From: Parapedobacter koreensis
GTDB lineage: Bacteria; Bacteroidota; Bacteroidia; Sphingobacteriales; Sphingobacteriaceae
Assembly: GCF_900109365.1 (NCBI RefSeq)
Contig: NZ_FNZR01000005.1
Location: 1 to 64,000 of the forward strand
DNA: 64,000 nucleotides
Reading direction: 5' to 3'
A program made the position numbers and the translations under genes. Position 1 is the stretch's first letter; every line of letters begins with the position of its first letter. The notes beneath the pieces were generated by a model. That model searched no databases, was not told where the DNA came from, and saw only the letters and a list, made by a program, of their open reading frames with translations. Shown here piece by piece: positions 4,300-58,165 of the stretch.

Positions 4300-4387
4300 T
4301 CTTTGCGTAAGCGAAGGCTGCTTATGCCCGATGGTTAGGATAGCCAATTAAAAACCCAATTTAATAACCTGTATAAATATCAATGAT

Positions 4388-7378
4388 ATGGAGCTTTTTT
4401 TTATGCAACTGAAAAGGGGTATCTTCCCTGTTTTTCTACTATTTACCTGGCTCATCGCCTCGCCAAGTCTTGCGCAGACGAATCTGCGCATTACGGGCAC
4501 GGTGACTGATGCCAGCAACAGGGAACCCATGTTTGGCGTATCTGTGTCCCAAAAAGGGACTTCAAATGGTACGACAACCGATGACAACGGCCAATTTGTA
4601 CTCAACAGCGTGCCCGAAGGGGCCATCATCGTTATCTCTTTTATTGGCTACGATCCGGTAGAACTGCCGGCAAGCAGCAACCCGATAACCATACAACTGA
4701 ATCCTTCGCTGAACATGCTGGAAGATGTGGTGGTGATAGGCTACGGCTCGGTGAGGCGGAAGGATGTCACTACCGCCATTTCCAGCGTATCGATGGATGA
4801 CCTCAACGAGCGCCCCATCGTGTCGGCAGCACAAGCCATTCAGGGAAGGGCCGCTGGTGTTTCTGTGATCCAGCCAAATGGCGCTCCGGGAGGCGAGACA
4901 TCCATACGTATCCGTGGGACGACGTCATTCAACGGCAGCAACGATCCGCTTTATGTGGTAGATGGCGTACCGGTAGATAACATCAACTTTCTCTCCCCGC
5001 AGGATATCGCCGATATGCAAATCTTGAAAGATGCTTCCTCTGCAGCTATCTATGGCTCCCGTGCTGCCAACGGAGTGGTACTCATCACCACCAAAAGGGG
5101 TGCCGAGGGTGGCGCAAAAATCGCATTCAATGCGCAGGCTACCCAAAACCGGGTAACTAATGAAATCGAGCCACTAAACACCGCCCAATACCGCGAGCTG
5201 CAGAACGAAATCGGCTTGGTGAGCCTTCCTGACGGCCTCACTGACCAAACGAACTGGTTTGATGAAGCTTACACCACGGGCCATATCCAAAACTACCAAG
5301 TATCTATTTCCGACGGTACGGAAAAGCTGAAGTATTTCCTCTCAGGCGGATACCTCGATGAGAAAGGCGTACTATCCTCGGCTTTCTATAAACGCTATAA
5401 CTTCCGTGCCAATATCGATAATCAGGTGCGCGATTGGTTGAACATCAGTGCGAATGTCTCGTATTCGGACTACAACAACAACGGGATCATATCGGGTACA
5501 GGGGCTAACCGTGGGGGTGTCGTGCTATCCGTGATTAATACACCCACTTACGCTCCCATCTGGGATCCGGAAAATCCGGCTCAGTATTACAACAACTTCT
5601 ACGGGATAGGCAACATTACTAGCCCGCTGGAAAATATGGCCCGCAGCAAAAACAACAAAGCCCGGGAAAACAGGTTGCTCGCCTCGGGCCACGCTACACT
5701 GACATTCATACCCGAGCTGCGACTCAAATCGTCATTCACCATGGATCGCCGCAACGCCGTGAGTACGTCTTTTCTGGACCCCATCTCCACGGCCTGGGGC
5801 CGCAACCAATATGGCGAAGGCTCGGACAACCGCAATATGAATACGGTGCTGACGTGGGACAACGTGCTGACGTATACCAAGAGCATCGACCTGCATAATA
5901 TCGAGGCCATGGGCGGCACATCATGGACGCAATCCGAATACACCAATAACTGGATCAGCGGGTCGCACTACCGCAATGACCTCATTCCCACCTTAAATGC
6001 CGCAAATAAAATCGCCTGGAATGGCACAGGTTCTGGCGGGTCAGAATGGGGCATCATGTCCTACTTCGGCCGTGCATCGTACAACTTCGACAGCCGCTAC
6101 CTCATCACAGCCAATCTCCGCGTAGACGGATCCTCTAAGCTGCATCCCGATCACCGCTGGGGTGTATTCCCATCAGTGTCTGCCGCATGGCGCTTGTCTT
6201 CCGAGCCGTTCATGGAAGATGTTGACTGGTTGAACGACCTGAAAATCCGCGGTGGCTGGGGACAAACCGGTAACCAGTCCGGCATCGGCGATTATGCGTA
6301 CCTACAACGCTACAACATCAACCGCATTGAATGGTTCGTCGAGGGGCAGGAGAATGCCGTGCCCTCCATCTCCCAAGCCAACTTGCGCACTCCGGATCTG
6401 ACCTGGGAGACCACTACGCAGACCAACATCGGTATTGACTTCATGGCGCTCAGGAATCGGCTGACCGTCAACCTGGATTACTATTACAAGCGCACCACAG
6501 ACATGCTGATGTATGTATCGCTACCTGCCGGTGCCGCAGCGGCCAACTCCATCGTGCGCAATGAAGGGGTGATGACCAACCGGGGGTTTGAGGTGATGGT
6601 AAGCAGCCAAAACTTCCGCGACGGGGATTTCCGCTGGGATACGGACTTCAACATCTCCTTCAACCGCAATAAGCTGGAGAGCCTCGAATTGCAACAAATC
6701 TATAGTACGGCTACCACCAGTGAGGTGGTAAACGAAGCCGTGGTGCGCAATGAGCCGGGCAGGGCGTTGAGCGGATTCTATGGTTATATCAGCGATGGCG
6801 TGGATCCGGAGACCGGTGAATTGATGTATCGCGACCTAAATGATGATGGCCGTCTTTCTTCATCAGATCGTACCTACATTGGCAATCCCAACCCGGATTT
6901 TACCTTCGGCCTCACCAACACGCTTTCATACAAAAATTTCAACCTGAGCATCTTTTTGCAAGGGTCTTATGGCAACGACATCTACAACGCCTCGCGCATG
7001 GAAACCGAAGGTATGTATGATGGCAAAAACCAGTCGACCCGCGTACTTGATCGTTGGCGCATACCCGGTCAGATCACCGGTGTACCCAAAGCAGGATTTG
7101 ACATCCGCAACTCTACCTACTTCATTGAAGATGGCAGCTACCTGCGGGTGAAAAATGTGGCGTTGTCCTATAACATCACCGGCAACCTGCTCACGCGGTG
7201 GGGTATCAATCGCTTACAACCTTATGTATCGACATCCAACCTACTCACGTGGACCAGCTACTCCGGTATGGATCCGGAAGTAAACCAATGGGGAAATAAC
7301 GGCGCCGTGCAAGGGATAGACTGGGGCACATACCCCCAAAACCGCTCATTTGTAGTAGGGATTAATGTGGAATTTTAA
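4388..7378 (+). CDS. SusC/RagA-family TonB-dependent outer-membrane transporter (PUL1)
   Basis: A 996-residue protein: signal peptide ending near LAQ (about residue 30), a carboxypeptidase-regulatory-like domain (about 33-110), a TonB-box-like segment DVVVIGYG, the plug domain (about 120-235; IRIRGTTSF, YVVDGVPV and SRAANGVVLITTKRG are family hallmarks) and a 22-strand barrel to the C-terminal phenylalanine. It imports oligosaccharides across the outer membrane together with the SusD protein encoded 14 nt downstream. An alternative start at 4403 would remove five residues, but the ATG at 4388 has the A+T-rich upstream region usual here while 4403 follows a run of T. There is no STN domain, so it is not a sigma/anti-sigma transducer, unlike the PUL2 SusC. 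Confidence 0.95.
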   Translation: MELFFMQLKRGIFPVFLLFTWLIASPSLAQTNLRITGTVTDASNREPMFGVSVSQKGTSNGTTTDDNGQFVLNSVPEGAIIVISFIGYDPVELPASSNPITIQLNPSLNMLEDVVVIGYGSVRRKDVTTAISSVSMDDLNERPIVSAAQAIQGRAAGVSVIQPNGAPGGETSIRIRGTTSFNGSNDPLYVVDGVPVDNINFLSPQDIADMQILKDASSAAIYGSRAANGVVLITTKRGAEGGAKIAFNAQATQNRVTNEIEPLNTAQYRELQNEIGLVSLPDGLTDQTNWFDEAYTTGHIQNYQVSISDGTEKLKYFLSGGYLDEKGVLSSAFYKRYNFRANIDNQVRDWLNISANVSYSDYNNNGIISGTGANRGGVVLSVINTPTYAPIWDPENPAQYYNNFYGIGNITSPLENMARSKNNKARENRLLASGHATLTFIPELRLKSSFTMDRRNAVSTSFLDPISTAWGRNQYGEGSDNRNMNTVLTWDNVLTYTKSIDLHNIEAMGGTSWTQSEYTNNWISGSHYRNDLIPTLNAANKIAWNGTGSGGSEWGIMSYFGRASYNFDSRYLITANLRVDGSSKLHPDHRWGVFPSVSAAWRLSSEPFMEDVDWLNDLKIRGGWGQTGNQSGIGDYAYLQRYNINRIEWFVEGQENAVPSISQANLRTPDLTWETTTQTNIGIDFMALRNRLTVNLDYYYKRTTDMLMYVSLPAGAAAANSIVRNEGVMTNRGFEVMVSSQNFRDGDFRWDTDFNISFNRNKLESLELQQIYSTATTSEVVNEAVVRNEPGRALSGFYGYISDGVDPETGELMYRDLNDDGRLSSSDRTYIGNPNPDFTFGLTNTLSYKNFNLSIFLQGSYGNDIYNASRMETEGMYDGKNQSTRVLDRWRIPGQITGVPKAGFDIRNSTYFIEDGSYLRVKNVALSYNITGNLLTRWGINRLQPYVSTSNLLTWTSYSGMDPEVNQWGNNGAVQGIDWGTYPQNRSFVVGINVEF

Positions 7379-54029: not shown

Positions 54030-54800
54030 CTACCTACCCATCCAGCCCCCATCTACCGTGAGGATGGTGCCATGCACGTAATTGGACGCCGCCGATGCCA
54101 GGAATACAGCAGGCCCCTTAAAGTCTTCAGGTTCGCCCCAGCGGCCAGCCGGGATACGTTCCAAGATAGCGCGGCTCCGGTCGGCATCTGTGCGTAGCGC
54201 CTCGGTATTGTCCGTAGAGATATAACCCGGAGCGATGGCATTTACGTTGACACCCTTCGATGCCCATTCGTTGGCAAAAGCCTTAGTAAGCTGTCCAATC
54301 GCTCCTTTTGAGGCCGCATAACCCGGCACGTTAATACCCCCCTGAAACGTGAGCAACGACGCGGTGAAGATAATCTTGCCACTACCCCTTGCCACCATAT
54401 CTTTTCCGATTTCTCGCGCGAGCACAAATTGCGAATTTTGGTTCACCTCGATGACCTCGTCCCAGTAATCGTCGGGATGCTCCGCGGCCGGCTTGCGCAG
54501 TATGGTACCGGCATTGTTAAATAAGATATCTACCTGAGGGTGCTCCGCTCGGATACGATCGATGAACGCATATACAGATTTCCGATCGCTAAAGTCGGCC
54601 TGGTAAGCATAAAACTTCCGGCCCATCGTCTCCACCGCTTCCGACACCGCACTTCCCACCAACTCCAGCGATGCCGATACCCCAATGATATCCGCACCCG
54701 CTTCAGCGAGGGATTCAGCAATCGCTTTGCCGATACCCCGTTTGCATCCGGTCACCATGGCGACCTTCCCGGTCAAGTCAAATCGATTGTTATTTGCCAT
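54030..54800 (-). CDS. kduD: 2-dehydro-3-deoxy-D-gluconate 5-dehydrogenase
   Basis: A 256-residue short-chain dehydrogenase. Cofactor motif TGCKRGIGKAIA (about 18-29), NNAGT (about 94), catalytic Ser and the YAASK pair (about 161-165) are in place. The N-terminus FDLTGKVAMVTGCKRGIG is typical of KduD, which reduces the keto group of 2,5-diketo-3-deoxygluconate to give 2-keto-3-deoxygluconate in unsaturated uronate breakdown. The first gene of the operon is kduI, which makes its substrate, so the assignment is firm. The gap to the DUF4861 gene is 7 nt. Confidence 0.92.
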   Translation of the reverse strand: MANNNRFDLTGKVAMVTGCKRGIGKAIAESLAEAGADIIGVSASLELVGSAVSEAVETMGRKFYAYQADFSDRKSVYAFIDRIRAEHPQVDILFNNAGTILRKPAAEHPDDYWDEVIEVNQNSQFVLAREIGKDMVARGSGKIIFTASLLTFQGGINVPGYAASKGAIGQLTKAFANEWASKGVNVNAIAPGYISTDNTEALRTDADRSRAILERIPAGRWGEPEDFKGPAVFLASAASNYVHGTILTVDGGWMGR

Positions 54801-54807
54801 ATATAGC

Positions 54808-55941
54808 TTATTTTATTTCTGCCTTTAAGGGTGATGCTTGCCGTTCTTTAAACACCTTCACATAGTCAAACCACGCGTTGGCCGATGTGATGCGACCAGC
54901 CTTATTCCACGTCCCTCCATTGAAATACGTAATGGGCTGGCCATCCGATGCGGTCAGTACGGCAATATACTGTGTGGGAAGAGCCTCGTAGCTTTCAAAA
55001 CCGCCCTCTGCCAACACCACGCCTACACCGGTGATGCCATAGTCACCCTGCTCAGGTTCCCAGTAGCCCAAGATTCCGCGATCTTGCTCGTTAAGAATCT
55101 CCCCTTCCACTGCCCGGCGTGCTACGCCAATAGCTGCGGGCAGCGTGCCGCCGCCTTCGATGGAATATGTCACTTCCACCTTATTCAATTGCGAGCCAGC
55201 ATCCAGGCTGTATACTTTACTTACCGACACCGTTTTTCCGTTCACTTGCCAAGGTTCATAGCCCAGCTTGAAAGTCGTGCGTAGCGGGCCGTTATCGAGG
55301 ATTTCGTAGGTACGATAATGTTTGCCGTAGTCGATACTGCCGTTGACATATGGCGCTATATCACCCGCACCCAACGTCTGCCCCACCGAGTAATAATCCA
55401 TCCCTTCGCCATGGTCGGTATGGTAGTCCCCGTGGGCATACCACTTGTCTATCACCAGGTCGGTCGTCCGTTTAGACCACAAATCCAGTCCCTGTGCATC
55501 GTCCGGTCTTCCTTCCAAAGCCTTGCCATACATGCGAAAGGCCACCACGTCGTTCTCCCAAGCAAAGTCATCATACCGCTCTGGCACGTAGCGGGCATAC
55601 GCCTTCGGCTGCAATGCCACCGGCGCTTCGGCTTCAACGGCGAGTGACAGCTCACCCGAAGCAGGAACGGATACCTGCAAAAGTACCTGTTGAGGCGTGT
55701 CCGCACCCTGGGTCTCCAATTGGTAAGCGACCTCCTCGCCCGTCGCCACGTCTATCACCCGGAATACACTATCCACGCTGAAGGCAGTTACAAATTCGCC
55801 GTAAGGTATACTTACCAGTTCCTCCCGTTCTTGGTTCAACGGATTGCTGATGACTATCGTATGCTCCCGGTTGGCCCCACATGCGGCCGCTAATAGCCCG
55901 GCAAAAAAGAAGCAGCCCAGACCATTCATCTTATTTCTCAT
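54808..55941 (-). CDS. DUF4861-family lipoprotein
   Basis: A 377-residue lipoprotein: signal peptide with lipobox LAAAC (Cys about 21), then a beta-rich DUF4861 domain with IVISNPLNQEREELVSIPY early on and the conserved DHGEGMDYYSVGQTLGAGDIAPY (about 176-198). The His and Asp residues around HGDYHTDHGEGMDYY could form an active site, but no activity is known to me. Such genes often accompany uronate and pectin genes. Standing between kduI and kduD, it probably acts on unsaturated uronides before entry to the cell. Start at 55941 or at the next ATG (55929). Confidence 0.82.
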   Translation of the reverse strand: MRNKMNGLGCFFFAGLLAAACGANREHTIVISNPLNQEREELVSIPYGEFVTAFSVDSVFRVIDVATGEEVAYQLETQGADTPQQVLLQVSVPASGELSLAVEAEAPVALQPKAYARYVPERYDDFAWENDVVAFRMYGKALEGRPDDAQGLDLWSKRTTDLVIDKWYAHGDYHTDHGEGMDYYSVGQTLGAGDIAPYVNGSIDYGKHYRTYEILDNGPLRTTFKLGYEPWQVNGKTVSVSKVYSLDAGSQLNKVEVTYSIEGGGTLPAAIGVARRAVEGEILNEQDRGILGYWEPEQGDYGITGVGVVLAEGGFESYEALPTQYIAVLTASDGQPITYFNGGTWNKAGRITSANAWFDYVKVFKERQASPLKAEIK

Positions 55942-55962
55942 TATTTTCAGGTTTTATTGCAT

Positions 55963-56805
55963 TTATTTCAAATCGGTAATCGCACGCTTATCCATGTCGT
56001 CATAGTCGAGGTTTTCACCCGCCATTCCCCAAATGAAGGTATAACTACTTGTTCCCGCCCCGGCATGGACAGACCATGGTGGAGAGATTACTGCCTGTTC
56101 ATTATGCATCCAGATGTGGCGTGTTTCCTCCGGTTGGCCCATGAAATGGCTTACGGCTTGGCCTTCGGGTATTTCAAAGTAAAAGTAAACTTCCATCCGA
56201 CGGTCGTGCGTATGCGCCGGCATCGTATTCCATACACTTCCCACTTTCAGTTCCGTCATCCCCATCTGCAATTGGCAGGTTTCGATGACACTATTGACCA
56301 GCAATTTATTGATGATCCGGTGGTTCGCCGTTTCTAAGCTCCCCAGTTCCACGATTTCAGCCTCTGCCTTGGTCACTTTCTTGGTAGGATATGCATGGTG
56401 CGCAGGAGCGGAATTGAGGTAGAATTTTGCCGGGGCTGCCGCATCATTACTGGAAAATACCACCTTCTCGTTGCCCTTACCTACATATAGGGCTTCCTTG
56501 AAACCCAACTCATATCCCTCACCGTCGACGGTTACCATTCCCGCCCCACCCACATTGATGATGCCCAACTCGCGCCGTTCGAGGAAATAAGGAGCTCTCA
56601 ATGCATCGATAGTTTCCAGTTGGAGTGGTTTATTCACCGGCTTCGCTCCGCCAGCAATATAGCGGTCATAATGGGTGTATACCAATTGGATTGCATCGTC
56701 GGCAAAAACCGTTTCAATTAAAAAGTTCGCCCGCAGCGCCGCCGTATCCAGCGTCTTGGTTTCAGCAGGCCCTATCGCATAGCGCGATTTATAATGTACG
56801 CTCAT
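55963..56805 (-). CDS. kduI: 5-keto-4-deoxyuronate isomerase
   Basis: A 280-residue cupin-fold metalloenzyme that isomerises 5-keto-4-deoxyuronate to 2,5-diketo-3-deoxygluconate. The KduI signature is seen: [14 protein letters not shown] (about 74-87), [12 protein letters not shown] (about 107-118), [21 protein letters not shown] with the metal-binding His/Glu set (about 190-210) and [11 protein letters not shown] near 240. Length is normal. First gene of the operon, with the operator-like palindrome about 70 nt upstream of its start. Confidence 0.95.
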
Positions 56806-56886: not shown

Positions 56887-57002
56887 GCTATTGCCCGACA
56901 ATATGCTAAAATGGGCCTCATCAAGGACGGCGTCAATGCTGCAGGCAGCCATTCGCAGCTATGAAAGGAACAAATTTAGTTCAGTTAAGCCGCGTTAAGC
57001 CA

Positions 57003-57084
57003 ATAAAAAAAGTCCCGAAACGGGGAGAATCGGGACTTCTTAACTAACCAATTATAAACCTAAATTATGAAAAGACAAATCTTA
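57003..57084 (-). ncRNA. candidate small RNA, about 80 nt
   Basis: On the minus strand a perfect -7 box (TATCTTTG, 57090-57097) is followed about 45 nt later by an intrinsic terminator: a 9-bp stem (57030-57038 with 57010-57018), an 11-nt loop and a U-rich tail. No reading frame of note lies between. The predicted RNA has an unstructured A/U-rich 5' half and the stem-loop at its 3' end, the usual build of a trans-acting small RNA. No neighbouring gene is placed to use it as a leader. The start is estimated from promoter spacing. Confidence 0.6.
57010..57038 (-). terminator. intrinsic terminator of the candidate small RNA
   Basis: 9-bp G+C-containing stem with an 11-nt loop; on the minus strand it is followed by TTTTTATTG. 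It is poorly suited as a terminator on the plus strand, where only CTTAAC follows. Confidence 0.7.
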
Positions 57085-57089
57085 TGCTG

Positions 57090-57097
57090 CAAAGATA
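57090..57097 (-). promoter_or_regulatory. -7 box TATCTTTG of the candidate small RNA
   Basis: Perfect TAnnTTTG match; a T-run (57115-57120) stands about 20 nt upstream as a weak -33 element. Confidence 0.5.
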
Positions 57098-57247
57098 CGA
57101 AGCGCCGCATTCATAAAAAACAGTTAATATGTTAAGAATTGTTAAACTAATTAACTACGCCAGTGTGTCGGGGTTCATCGTTTCCAGTGCTTTTGCGTCT
57201 ATGGTTTCAGCGCCCGCTTTATGTCCAGTATTGTAAATTGATTTTTA

Positions 57248-57259: not shown

Positions 57260-58165
57260 ATGGCACCAGTGACCAGCCTACAAACGTTCTATCAGCAGTT
57301 GCACCGCGAGACCGAGCAACTGTCTCCCGGTGCGGGGCACTTCAACCTGTTTCGGGTAGAGGATCTCGAATTGCCCAACAGCAAGCCTGTCAGCTACAGC
57401 CGACGTGATTTCTTCAAGATTAGCTTGGTTACGGGCGATAGCAAAATTCATTACGCCGACCGAACCGTGGATACCCATGGCACAGTGCTGGTATTTACTA
57501 ATCCCATGATTCCCTTTTTCTGGGAGCGGATCAGCAAAAGGCAAACCGGTTTTGTCTGCGTGTTTACCGAAGCTTTCTTTGCGCGTTACGGGCAGATCAA
57601 AGATTTCCCCGCCTTCCAAGGCCCCGCTACGGGTATCGTCCAGTTGGCTGACGACCAGACCGGCCATTTCCAGGAATTCTTCGAACGAATGTACGCCGAG
57701 CTCCATGGCGATTACATTTTCAAGTACGACCTGCTGCGCAACCAGCTGCTGGAGCTGGTGCATGAAGCGCAGAAGCTGCAACCTATTTCGGGCCAACTTG
57801 TCAGCGCCGCCAATGCAGCCGAACGCATCGCCGGCCTGTTTGCTGAGCTGCTCGAACGTCAGTTTCCCATTGAGATGACCAGCCAAGTGCTGCGATTGCG
57901 ATCGGCCAAGGACTATGCCCAGCAGTTGCATGTGCACGTCAATCACCTCAACAAAGCCCTTAAGACCATCACTGGCCATACCACCATGCAATTAATCGCC
58001 GAGCGCATGATGCAGGAAGCCCGTATATTGCTCAAAAGTACCGACTGGACCATCGGCGAGATTAGCCGCTCCCTTGGCTTCGAGGAGCCCAATCACTTTT
58101 CCGCATTTTTTAAAAGCAAGTCCGGTCAAAGCCCCAATCATTTCCGTCAGACACAGAAAGATTGA
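57260..58165 (+). CDS. AraC-family transcriptional regulator
   Basis: A 301-residue cytoplasmic regulator: an N-terminal cupin-like ligand domain (about 1-165) and a C-terminal AraC double helix-turn-helix (about 195-298; ending WTIGEISRSLGFEEPNHFSAFFKSKSGQSPNHFRQTQ). This type of gene is often paired with a short-chain dehydrogenase in Bacteroidota, and the next gene, 79 nt downstream, is one, so it probably controls that gene. The ligand is unknown. Confidence 0.92.
   Translation: MAPVTSLQTFYQQLHRETEQLSPGAGHFNLFRVEDLELPNSKPVSYSRRDFFKISLVTGDSKIHYADRTVDTHGTVLVFTNPMIPFFWERISKRQTGFVCVFTEAFFARYGQIKDFPAFQGPATGIVQLADDQTGHFQEFFERMYAELHGDYIFKYDLLRNQLLELVHEAQKLQPISGQLVSAANAAERIAGLFAELLERQFPIEMTSQVLRLRSAKDYAQQLHVHVNHLNKALKTITGHTTMQLIAERMMQEARILLKSTDWTIGEISRSLGFEEPNHFSAFFKSKSGQSPNHFRQTQKD

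Follow-up and report, generated by a model that had tools for sequence, protein, structure and literature searches.

What does the 454-bp gap between a KduI gene and an AraC-type gene in Parapedobacter koreensis encode, and what might its product do? The gap lies in a 64,000-nucleotide stretch of DNA (positions 1 to 64,000 of contig NZ_FNZR01000005.1) that we refer to as the window. A first-pass annotation had placed a promoter box, an A/U-rich stretch and a terminator in this gap and had read them as an orphan small RNA (sRNA) of about 80 nt. The sequence bears out the position of all three as well as the length of the gap. The features that we refer to below are as follows.

57005..57085, minus strand: predicted sRNA, a class II family member (from sequence, homology and a conserved block)
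57097-57090, minus strand: Bacteroidota sigma-A -7 box TATCTTTG (from sequence; kept in 3/3 aligned copies)
57071..57079, minus strand: 5' extension of the seed, common to class II copies
57044..57070, minus strand: seed TCATAATTTAGGTTTATAATTGGTTAG, invariant and complementary to SusC leaders with their start codon
57010..57038, minus strand: intrinsic terminator stem-loop; the stem covaries and the loop TTCTCCCCGTT is conserved
57005..57011, minus strand: T-run of the terminator (from sequence)
57130..57146, minus strand: direct repeat TTTAACA-N4-TTAACA upstream of the promoter, a candidate activator site
55963..56805, minus strand: KduI/IolB family gene (Pfam PF04962; start at 56805), the downstream neighbour, outside the RNA
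57260..58165, plus strand: AraC-type regulator gene (Pfam PF12833), the divergent neighbour

The sigma-A box, the A/U-rich stretch and the intrinsic terminator follow one another on the minus strand and support the look of an sRNA gene of ~80 nt. TAnnTTTG at -12 to -5 is given as the Bacteroidota sigma-A box in the available portion of PMC9723704. We infer that the locus is transcribed, with a predicted 5' end at ~57084-57086 and a 3' end inside the T-run. The A/U-rich part is ~45 nt long and reaches ~57039; within it, 57071..57079 together with the next base is complementary to the codons ATGAAAAGACAA. In the centroid fold no pairing involves the 5' half, and the terminator loop spans 11 nt (57019-57029). 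By eye, the RNA contains no AUG, and its longest UUG-started frame has 8 codons. A further box, TAAATTTG, also found by eye, lies at ~56971-56978 and is a possible KduI promoter. The KduI gene itself heads an operon-like row with DUF4861 and short-chain dehydrogenase genes (54030-56805), perhaps concerned with uronate use.

Taken on their own, the promoter and terminator signals are weak evidence. Between 50000 and 64000, a sigma-70 scan gave 15 promoter-like sites where 16.8 were expected, and 12 terminators against 15.0; neither count exceeds chance, and we set the scan aside as uninformative. Its loop limit of 8 nt made it miss the terminator in the gap, with its 11-nt loop. The fold has a z-score of -1.82, and 10/200 shuffles folded equally well. 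Once copies and relatives are compared, the sequence argues that the feature is far more than chance, given 13 core copies against a near-empty control and conserved blocks in two relatives whose flanks diverge.

The 19-mer core TAGGTTTATAATTGGTTAG occurs exactly 13 times in the host genome, with 16 sites at up to three mismatches, whereas the reversed pattern gave no exact site and one at up to three mismatches in the same genome. The element is thus no orphan. In a DNA search, similarity among the copies of this genome runs from the predicted transcription start to the terminator: 28 nt, TCATAATTTAGGTTTATAATTGGTTAGT, are invariant across 10 close copies, and the linker and terminator stem vary. 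The tenth close copy (C18:474028) retains the seed and has a different terminator. Two sites (C7:656523 and C9:244311) retain the core and nothing more, and one of the 13 core copies (C7:926767) is without a clear terminator. Three copies sit inside 13 kb on contig C19.

We built a covariance model for the family and searched genomes of the genus, the family and the phylum. The model finds 7-20 copies per genome in 9/9 genus genomes, 12 of them in the host genome, and matches 81/121 Sphingobacteriaceae genomes in 17/25 genera. Conservation in close relatives, whose absence the first-pass annotation had named as a refuting outcome, was found, and the covariance search across Bacteroidota that it had proposed matched 11/395 genomes, nine from the same family and two, weakly, from elsewhere. 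At least 118 named-genome stretches contain the 25-mer CATAATTTAGGTTTATAATTGGTTA; the 80 matches listed come from genera of Sphingobacteriaceae (Sphingobacterium, Mucilaginibacter, Parapedobacter, Olivibacter and Rhinopithecimicrobium) and from 'bacterium A37T11'. A strict 58-letter pattern had no match in genome contigs, and a plasmid search also returned none. Weak matches in another family (L408 and L409, in G348 and G246) consist of TTTTTCATAATTTAAAGTTTGGTTGGTT plus the start of a hairpin, possibly a retuned seed. At five further loci (L263, L303, L334, L413 and L416, from Mucilaginibacter and genus g14 genomes), the seed follows a conserved tRNA-like element with the T-arm GGTTCGA, the acceptor TGTAGGA/TCCTACA and a long extra arm, which ARAGORN does not call.

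Could the element act in cis, as an attenuator-bearing 5' leader of the KduI operon and not as a separate RNA? It lies upstream of KduI on the same strand, and in a second genome of the genus (G028) the orthologue of the window copy likewise adjoins KduI, with promoter and upstream repeat kept. In another relative (G045), the counterpart of the window copy stands at another location, again with promoter and repeat. All three copies share the repeat TTTAACA-N4-TTAACA, the box CGTATCTTTG, RNA and terminator, but not their flanks. A search of the genus found the sRNA next to KduI at 2/8 orthologous loci and none at the other 6/8, and 12 further core copies of the host genome stand at other places. 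The box TAAATTTG could drive KduI separately, and the conserved seed fits SusC leaders instead, as described below. We therefore regard a KduI leader as very improbable.

The terminator stem covaries: in 9 copies of the host genome it is paired in 99% of cells, with both-side changes at 6/11 pairs and 19 double-change cells against 6.9 in shuffled alignments. Among 89 matches from named-genome loci, double changes occur at 11/11 stem pairs (283 double-change cells against 92 in shuffles); these loci were picked through the seed, so this set is uninformative on seed conservation. The 5' end is nearly invariant, in contrast to the changing stem. The loop is C-rich and conserved as well, reading CTCCCCG in 93/134 distinct copies and TGCCCAT in 31/134. 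A conserved loop on a freely changing stem suggests a second binding partner or role. The number of copies per genome, the three within 13 kb on C19 and the occurrence on phage contigs might also be explained if the copies were remnants left by a mobile or repeated element and did nothing as RNAs. The compensatory stem changes speak against such remnants, as do upstream regions that differ yet keep their promoter boxes and the invariant seed with a replaced terminator at C18:474028, and we find this explanation extremely hard to credit.

We took 134 distinct copies that match the 26-nt seed exactly and sorted them by form into classes whose names are our own: 58 belong to class I, 41, including the window copy, to class II, 23 to class III and 12 to none of these. 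Class I carries TAnnTTTG ~5 nt ahead of UCAUAAUU, so that the RNA would start on the anti-start codon, and in 39/58 copies (L032, L034, L198 and L206, for example) the promoter and an inverted repeat of the AGTGTA/TACACT type overlap. Class II extends further at the 5' end, where TTGTCTTTTCAT complements ATGAAAAGACAA. Class III has TCTTC ending ahead of TCAT. Upstream of the 41 class II copies we found the TTAACA repeat in 24, an ECF-like TGTAAC...CGTTA element in 14, a sigma-54-like element in 6, a sigma-A box in 3 and none of these elements in 11. In the sigma-54-like elements the C of the -12 GC is missing, and we do not claim them. Class II copies that differ in promoter type (the window copy, L022, L028, L030, L251 and L255) have the repeat TTTAACA-N4/5-TTAACA ahead of them; the genome holds 17 such repeats, 4 of them ahead of sRNAs. 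Different copies may answer different signals via different promoters.

Which mRNAs could such a seed reach? The first-pass annotation had suggested that the 5' part pairs near the starts of many mRNAs through the A-rich leaders of this genome. At the TIGR04056 cut-off the host genome has 56 SusC genes. For a background we collected the genes called in 40 stretches of 20 kb, 568 in all, and dropped 218 for low A+T; k-mers were then compared in windows from -70 to +15 between the 56 SusC genes and 350 A+T-matched genes, taking the leftmost ATG as the start codon, a choice that may misplace some starts. The five hexamers with the strongest enrichment at SusC starts (CCAATT, AACCAA, TAACCA, ACCAAT and CAATTA) all fall within the reverse complement of the RNA, as do the three leading heptamers and the leading octamer. 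CCAATT occurs at 16/56 SusC starts and 12/350 background starts, the octamer AACCAATT at 10/56 and 5/350. The class I seed forms duplexes with a median of -13.6 kcal/mol at SusC starts, compared to -9.7 kcal/mol at A+T-matched starts (p = 8.5e-10), and none of 100 dinucleotide shuffles did as well. Predicted pairing near mRNA starts thus stands, and the appeal to A-rich leaders in general is too broad, since the predicted pairing favours SusC leaders over genes of matched A+T content.

Target prediction against leaders likewise pointed to SusC starts, with 22/56 regions at -14.4 kcal/mol or better and 34/56 missing that threshold. Of these 22 duplexes, 17 fall between -45 and +8, and 15 have their end over the AUG, at +3 to +5. 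One example, in locus L104 (C12:3787-4787), is given here.

4340..4364, plus strand: predicted target site in the leader of a SusC gene that lies in the window and whose start is set at 4388; duplex energy -16.6 kcal/mol

A genome from another genus (G052) has AACCAA in 9/14 SusC-like leaders against 14/231, with an energy p of 6e-4. In G016 the hexamer was found in 0/5 SusC-like genes and the energy p was 0.034, in a sample of 5 only. Thirteen other host genes, picked from the background with a home-made SusC N-terminal profile, had no pairing preference; either the pairing is specific or the profile may be weak.

The anatomy of the gene, the number of copies, their conservation, the covariation of the stem and the complementarity to SusC leaders are all computed properties of these sequences. 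Judged from them, the window feature is probably one copy of a multicopy family of trans-acting sRNAs that repress SusC translation. In each copy an unpaired seed, UCAUAAUUUAGGUUUAUAAUUGGUUAG, would form the 5' part, with an intrinsic terminator of the copy's own behind it. This seed would pair with the leader and start codon of SusC-type mRNAs (~-30 to +4) and block ribosome entry, and induction of one or more copies would lower many outer-membrane uptake systems together. It is the direction of regulation that we infer, and the RNA might instead be a trans regulator that activates or stabilises SusC mRNAs, or that chiefly sequesters an RNA-binding protein; in favour of this, the conserved C-rich loop hints at a second binding partner. 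The strongest duplexes cover the start codon, however, which normally blocks translation, and FopS, an sRNA with the same layout, represses according to the accessible part of PMC11697453. Activation or sequestration thus seems rather unlikely, and repression remains the reading that we prefer.

FopS is the closest known system. In B. thetaiotaomicron, the accessible sections of PMC11697453 describe 14 FopS paralogues that have RbpB, an RRM protein, as a binding partner and that were shown by experiment to repress SusC translation. As far as that account goes, the two families are alike in their length of ~65-80 nt, a single-stranded 5' seed followed by a terminator, sigma-A promoters, a seed complementary to the SusC start region with CAU set against the start codon, and an occurrence on phage contigs; 12-15 FopS paralogues per genome are comparable to the 13 core copies here. 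The window family differs in its seed, its several promoter types, its conserved C-rich loop and a host genome without an RRM_1 protein. No RRM_1 protein was found in 7/8 other genus genomes either, and one is present in 53/121 family genomes. Mutual exclusion of RRM proteins and the sRNA, which we considered, is not strict: genera g6, g11 and g20 have both.

Since layout, copy number and target class are so similar, the window element might simply belong to the Rfam FopS family. The FopS model (RF04319) does match weakly, with 16.2 bits on the right strand, against a gathering score of 56, so that there is no accepted match in the window. It had no hit in 14 copy-bearing loci or in any of 61 family genomes, while the control, Bacteroides ihuae, was positive. 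The R1/R1' seed of GibS and FopS, as it stands in the Rfam alignment, is not carried, and the FopS consensus seed has no preference for SusC leaders of the host genome (p = 0.83). We consider membership unlikely. The comparison with known Rfam families that the first-pass annotation had called for returned no family at its gathering score; weaker matches (MicC, PyrR and others) were mainly terminator-borne, and we took them as chance. By analogy, then, the window family would work like FopS from outside the Rfam FopS family, and most likely represses.

Two other Bacteroidota sRNAs invite comparison. GibS of B. thetaiotaomicron also pairs at translation starts, through the R1 seed that it shares with FopS, and differs, as described in the accessible part of PMC11697453, by having two seeds and other targets. 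Rfp18 of Flavobacterium psychrophilum is likewise conserved and has mRNA targets; it is a structured RNA that affects proteases, and the available portion of PMC9723704 does not describe a SusC seed for it.

The 25-mer seed is also present in 30 viral contigs of IMG/VR (L469-L498), and the covariance model matches 30/30 of them (31 matches). Their terminators are unlike those of the host and covary (107 double-change cells against 35 in shuffles). Among ten proteins chosen from six seed-bearing contigs, nine matched PHROG families, namely terminase, portal, tape measure, head, protease and integrase. ARAGORN places a tRNA 8-10 nt before the CAT in 3/30 viral copies; a marginal Rfam tRNA match in L481 ends 13 nt ahead of the seed, and L491 and L498 have T-arm-like sequence ahead of it, so that we claim a tRNA before the seed for some copies only. 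A few copies stand beside an integrase (L480 and L487, and L485 by likeness only) and may have originated at attachment sites; in the other viral contigs inspected, the seed is near terminase, portal or tape-measure genes. FopS-type seeds are found in 24 viral contigs (L501-L524), of which 8/12 tested reach the Rfam FopS score; the accessible text of PMC11697453 mentions one phage. The only match to a named phage, Tenacibaculum phage JQ, we rejected as an sRNA: no terminator was seen, and on the opposite strand the site (L500:4001-4029) looks like a leader, TTAACCAATTAAAAAACTAAATTATGAAA, ahead of a small unannotated frame. It resembles the target and not the sRNA.

It is tempting to speculate that tailed phages took up a SusC-silencing host sRNA and use it to shut down SusC-type proteins during infection or lysogeny, in RRM-less hosts included, a possibility that we hold tentatively and with some doubt. 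Where a phage copy lies directly behind a tRNA gene, tRNA processing could free the seed. If this were true, a phage copy might block superinfection through SusC-type receptors.

In the literature that we searched, no such SusC-regulating sRNA family has been described outside Bacteroides. The window family would extend FopS-like logic to a further branch of the phylum; its seed is a different one that suits the SusC leaders found there, and it would do without the RRM protein to which FopS binds. This suggests that multicopy antisense seeds silencing SusC leaders are a general strategy of Bacteroidota, and it would supply predicted targets, already listed, in bacteria other than the gut genus. 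Through the phage copies, a connection of phages with the control of SusC-type outer-membrane proteins would become open to experiment.
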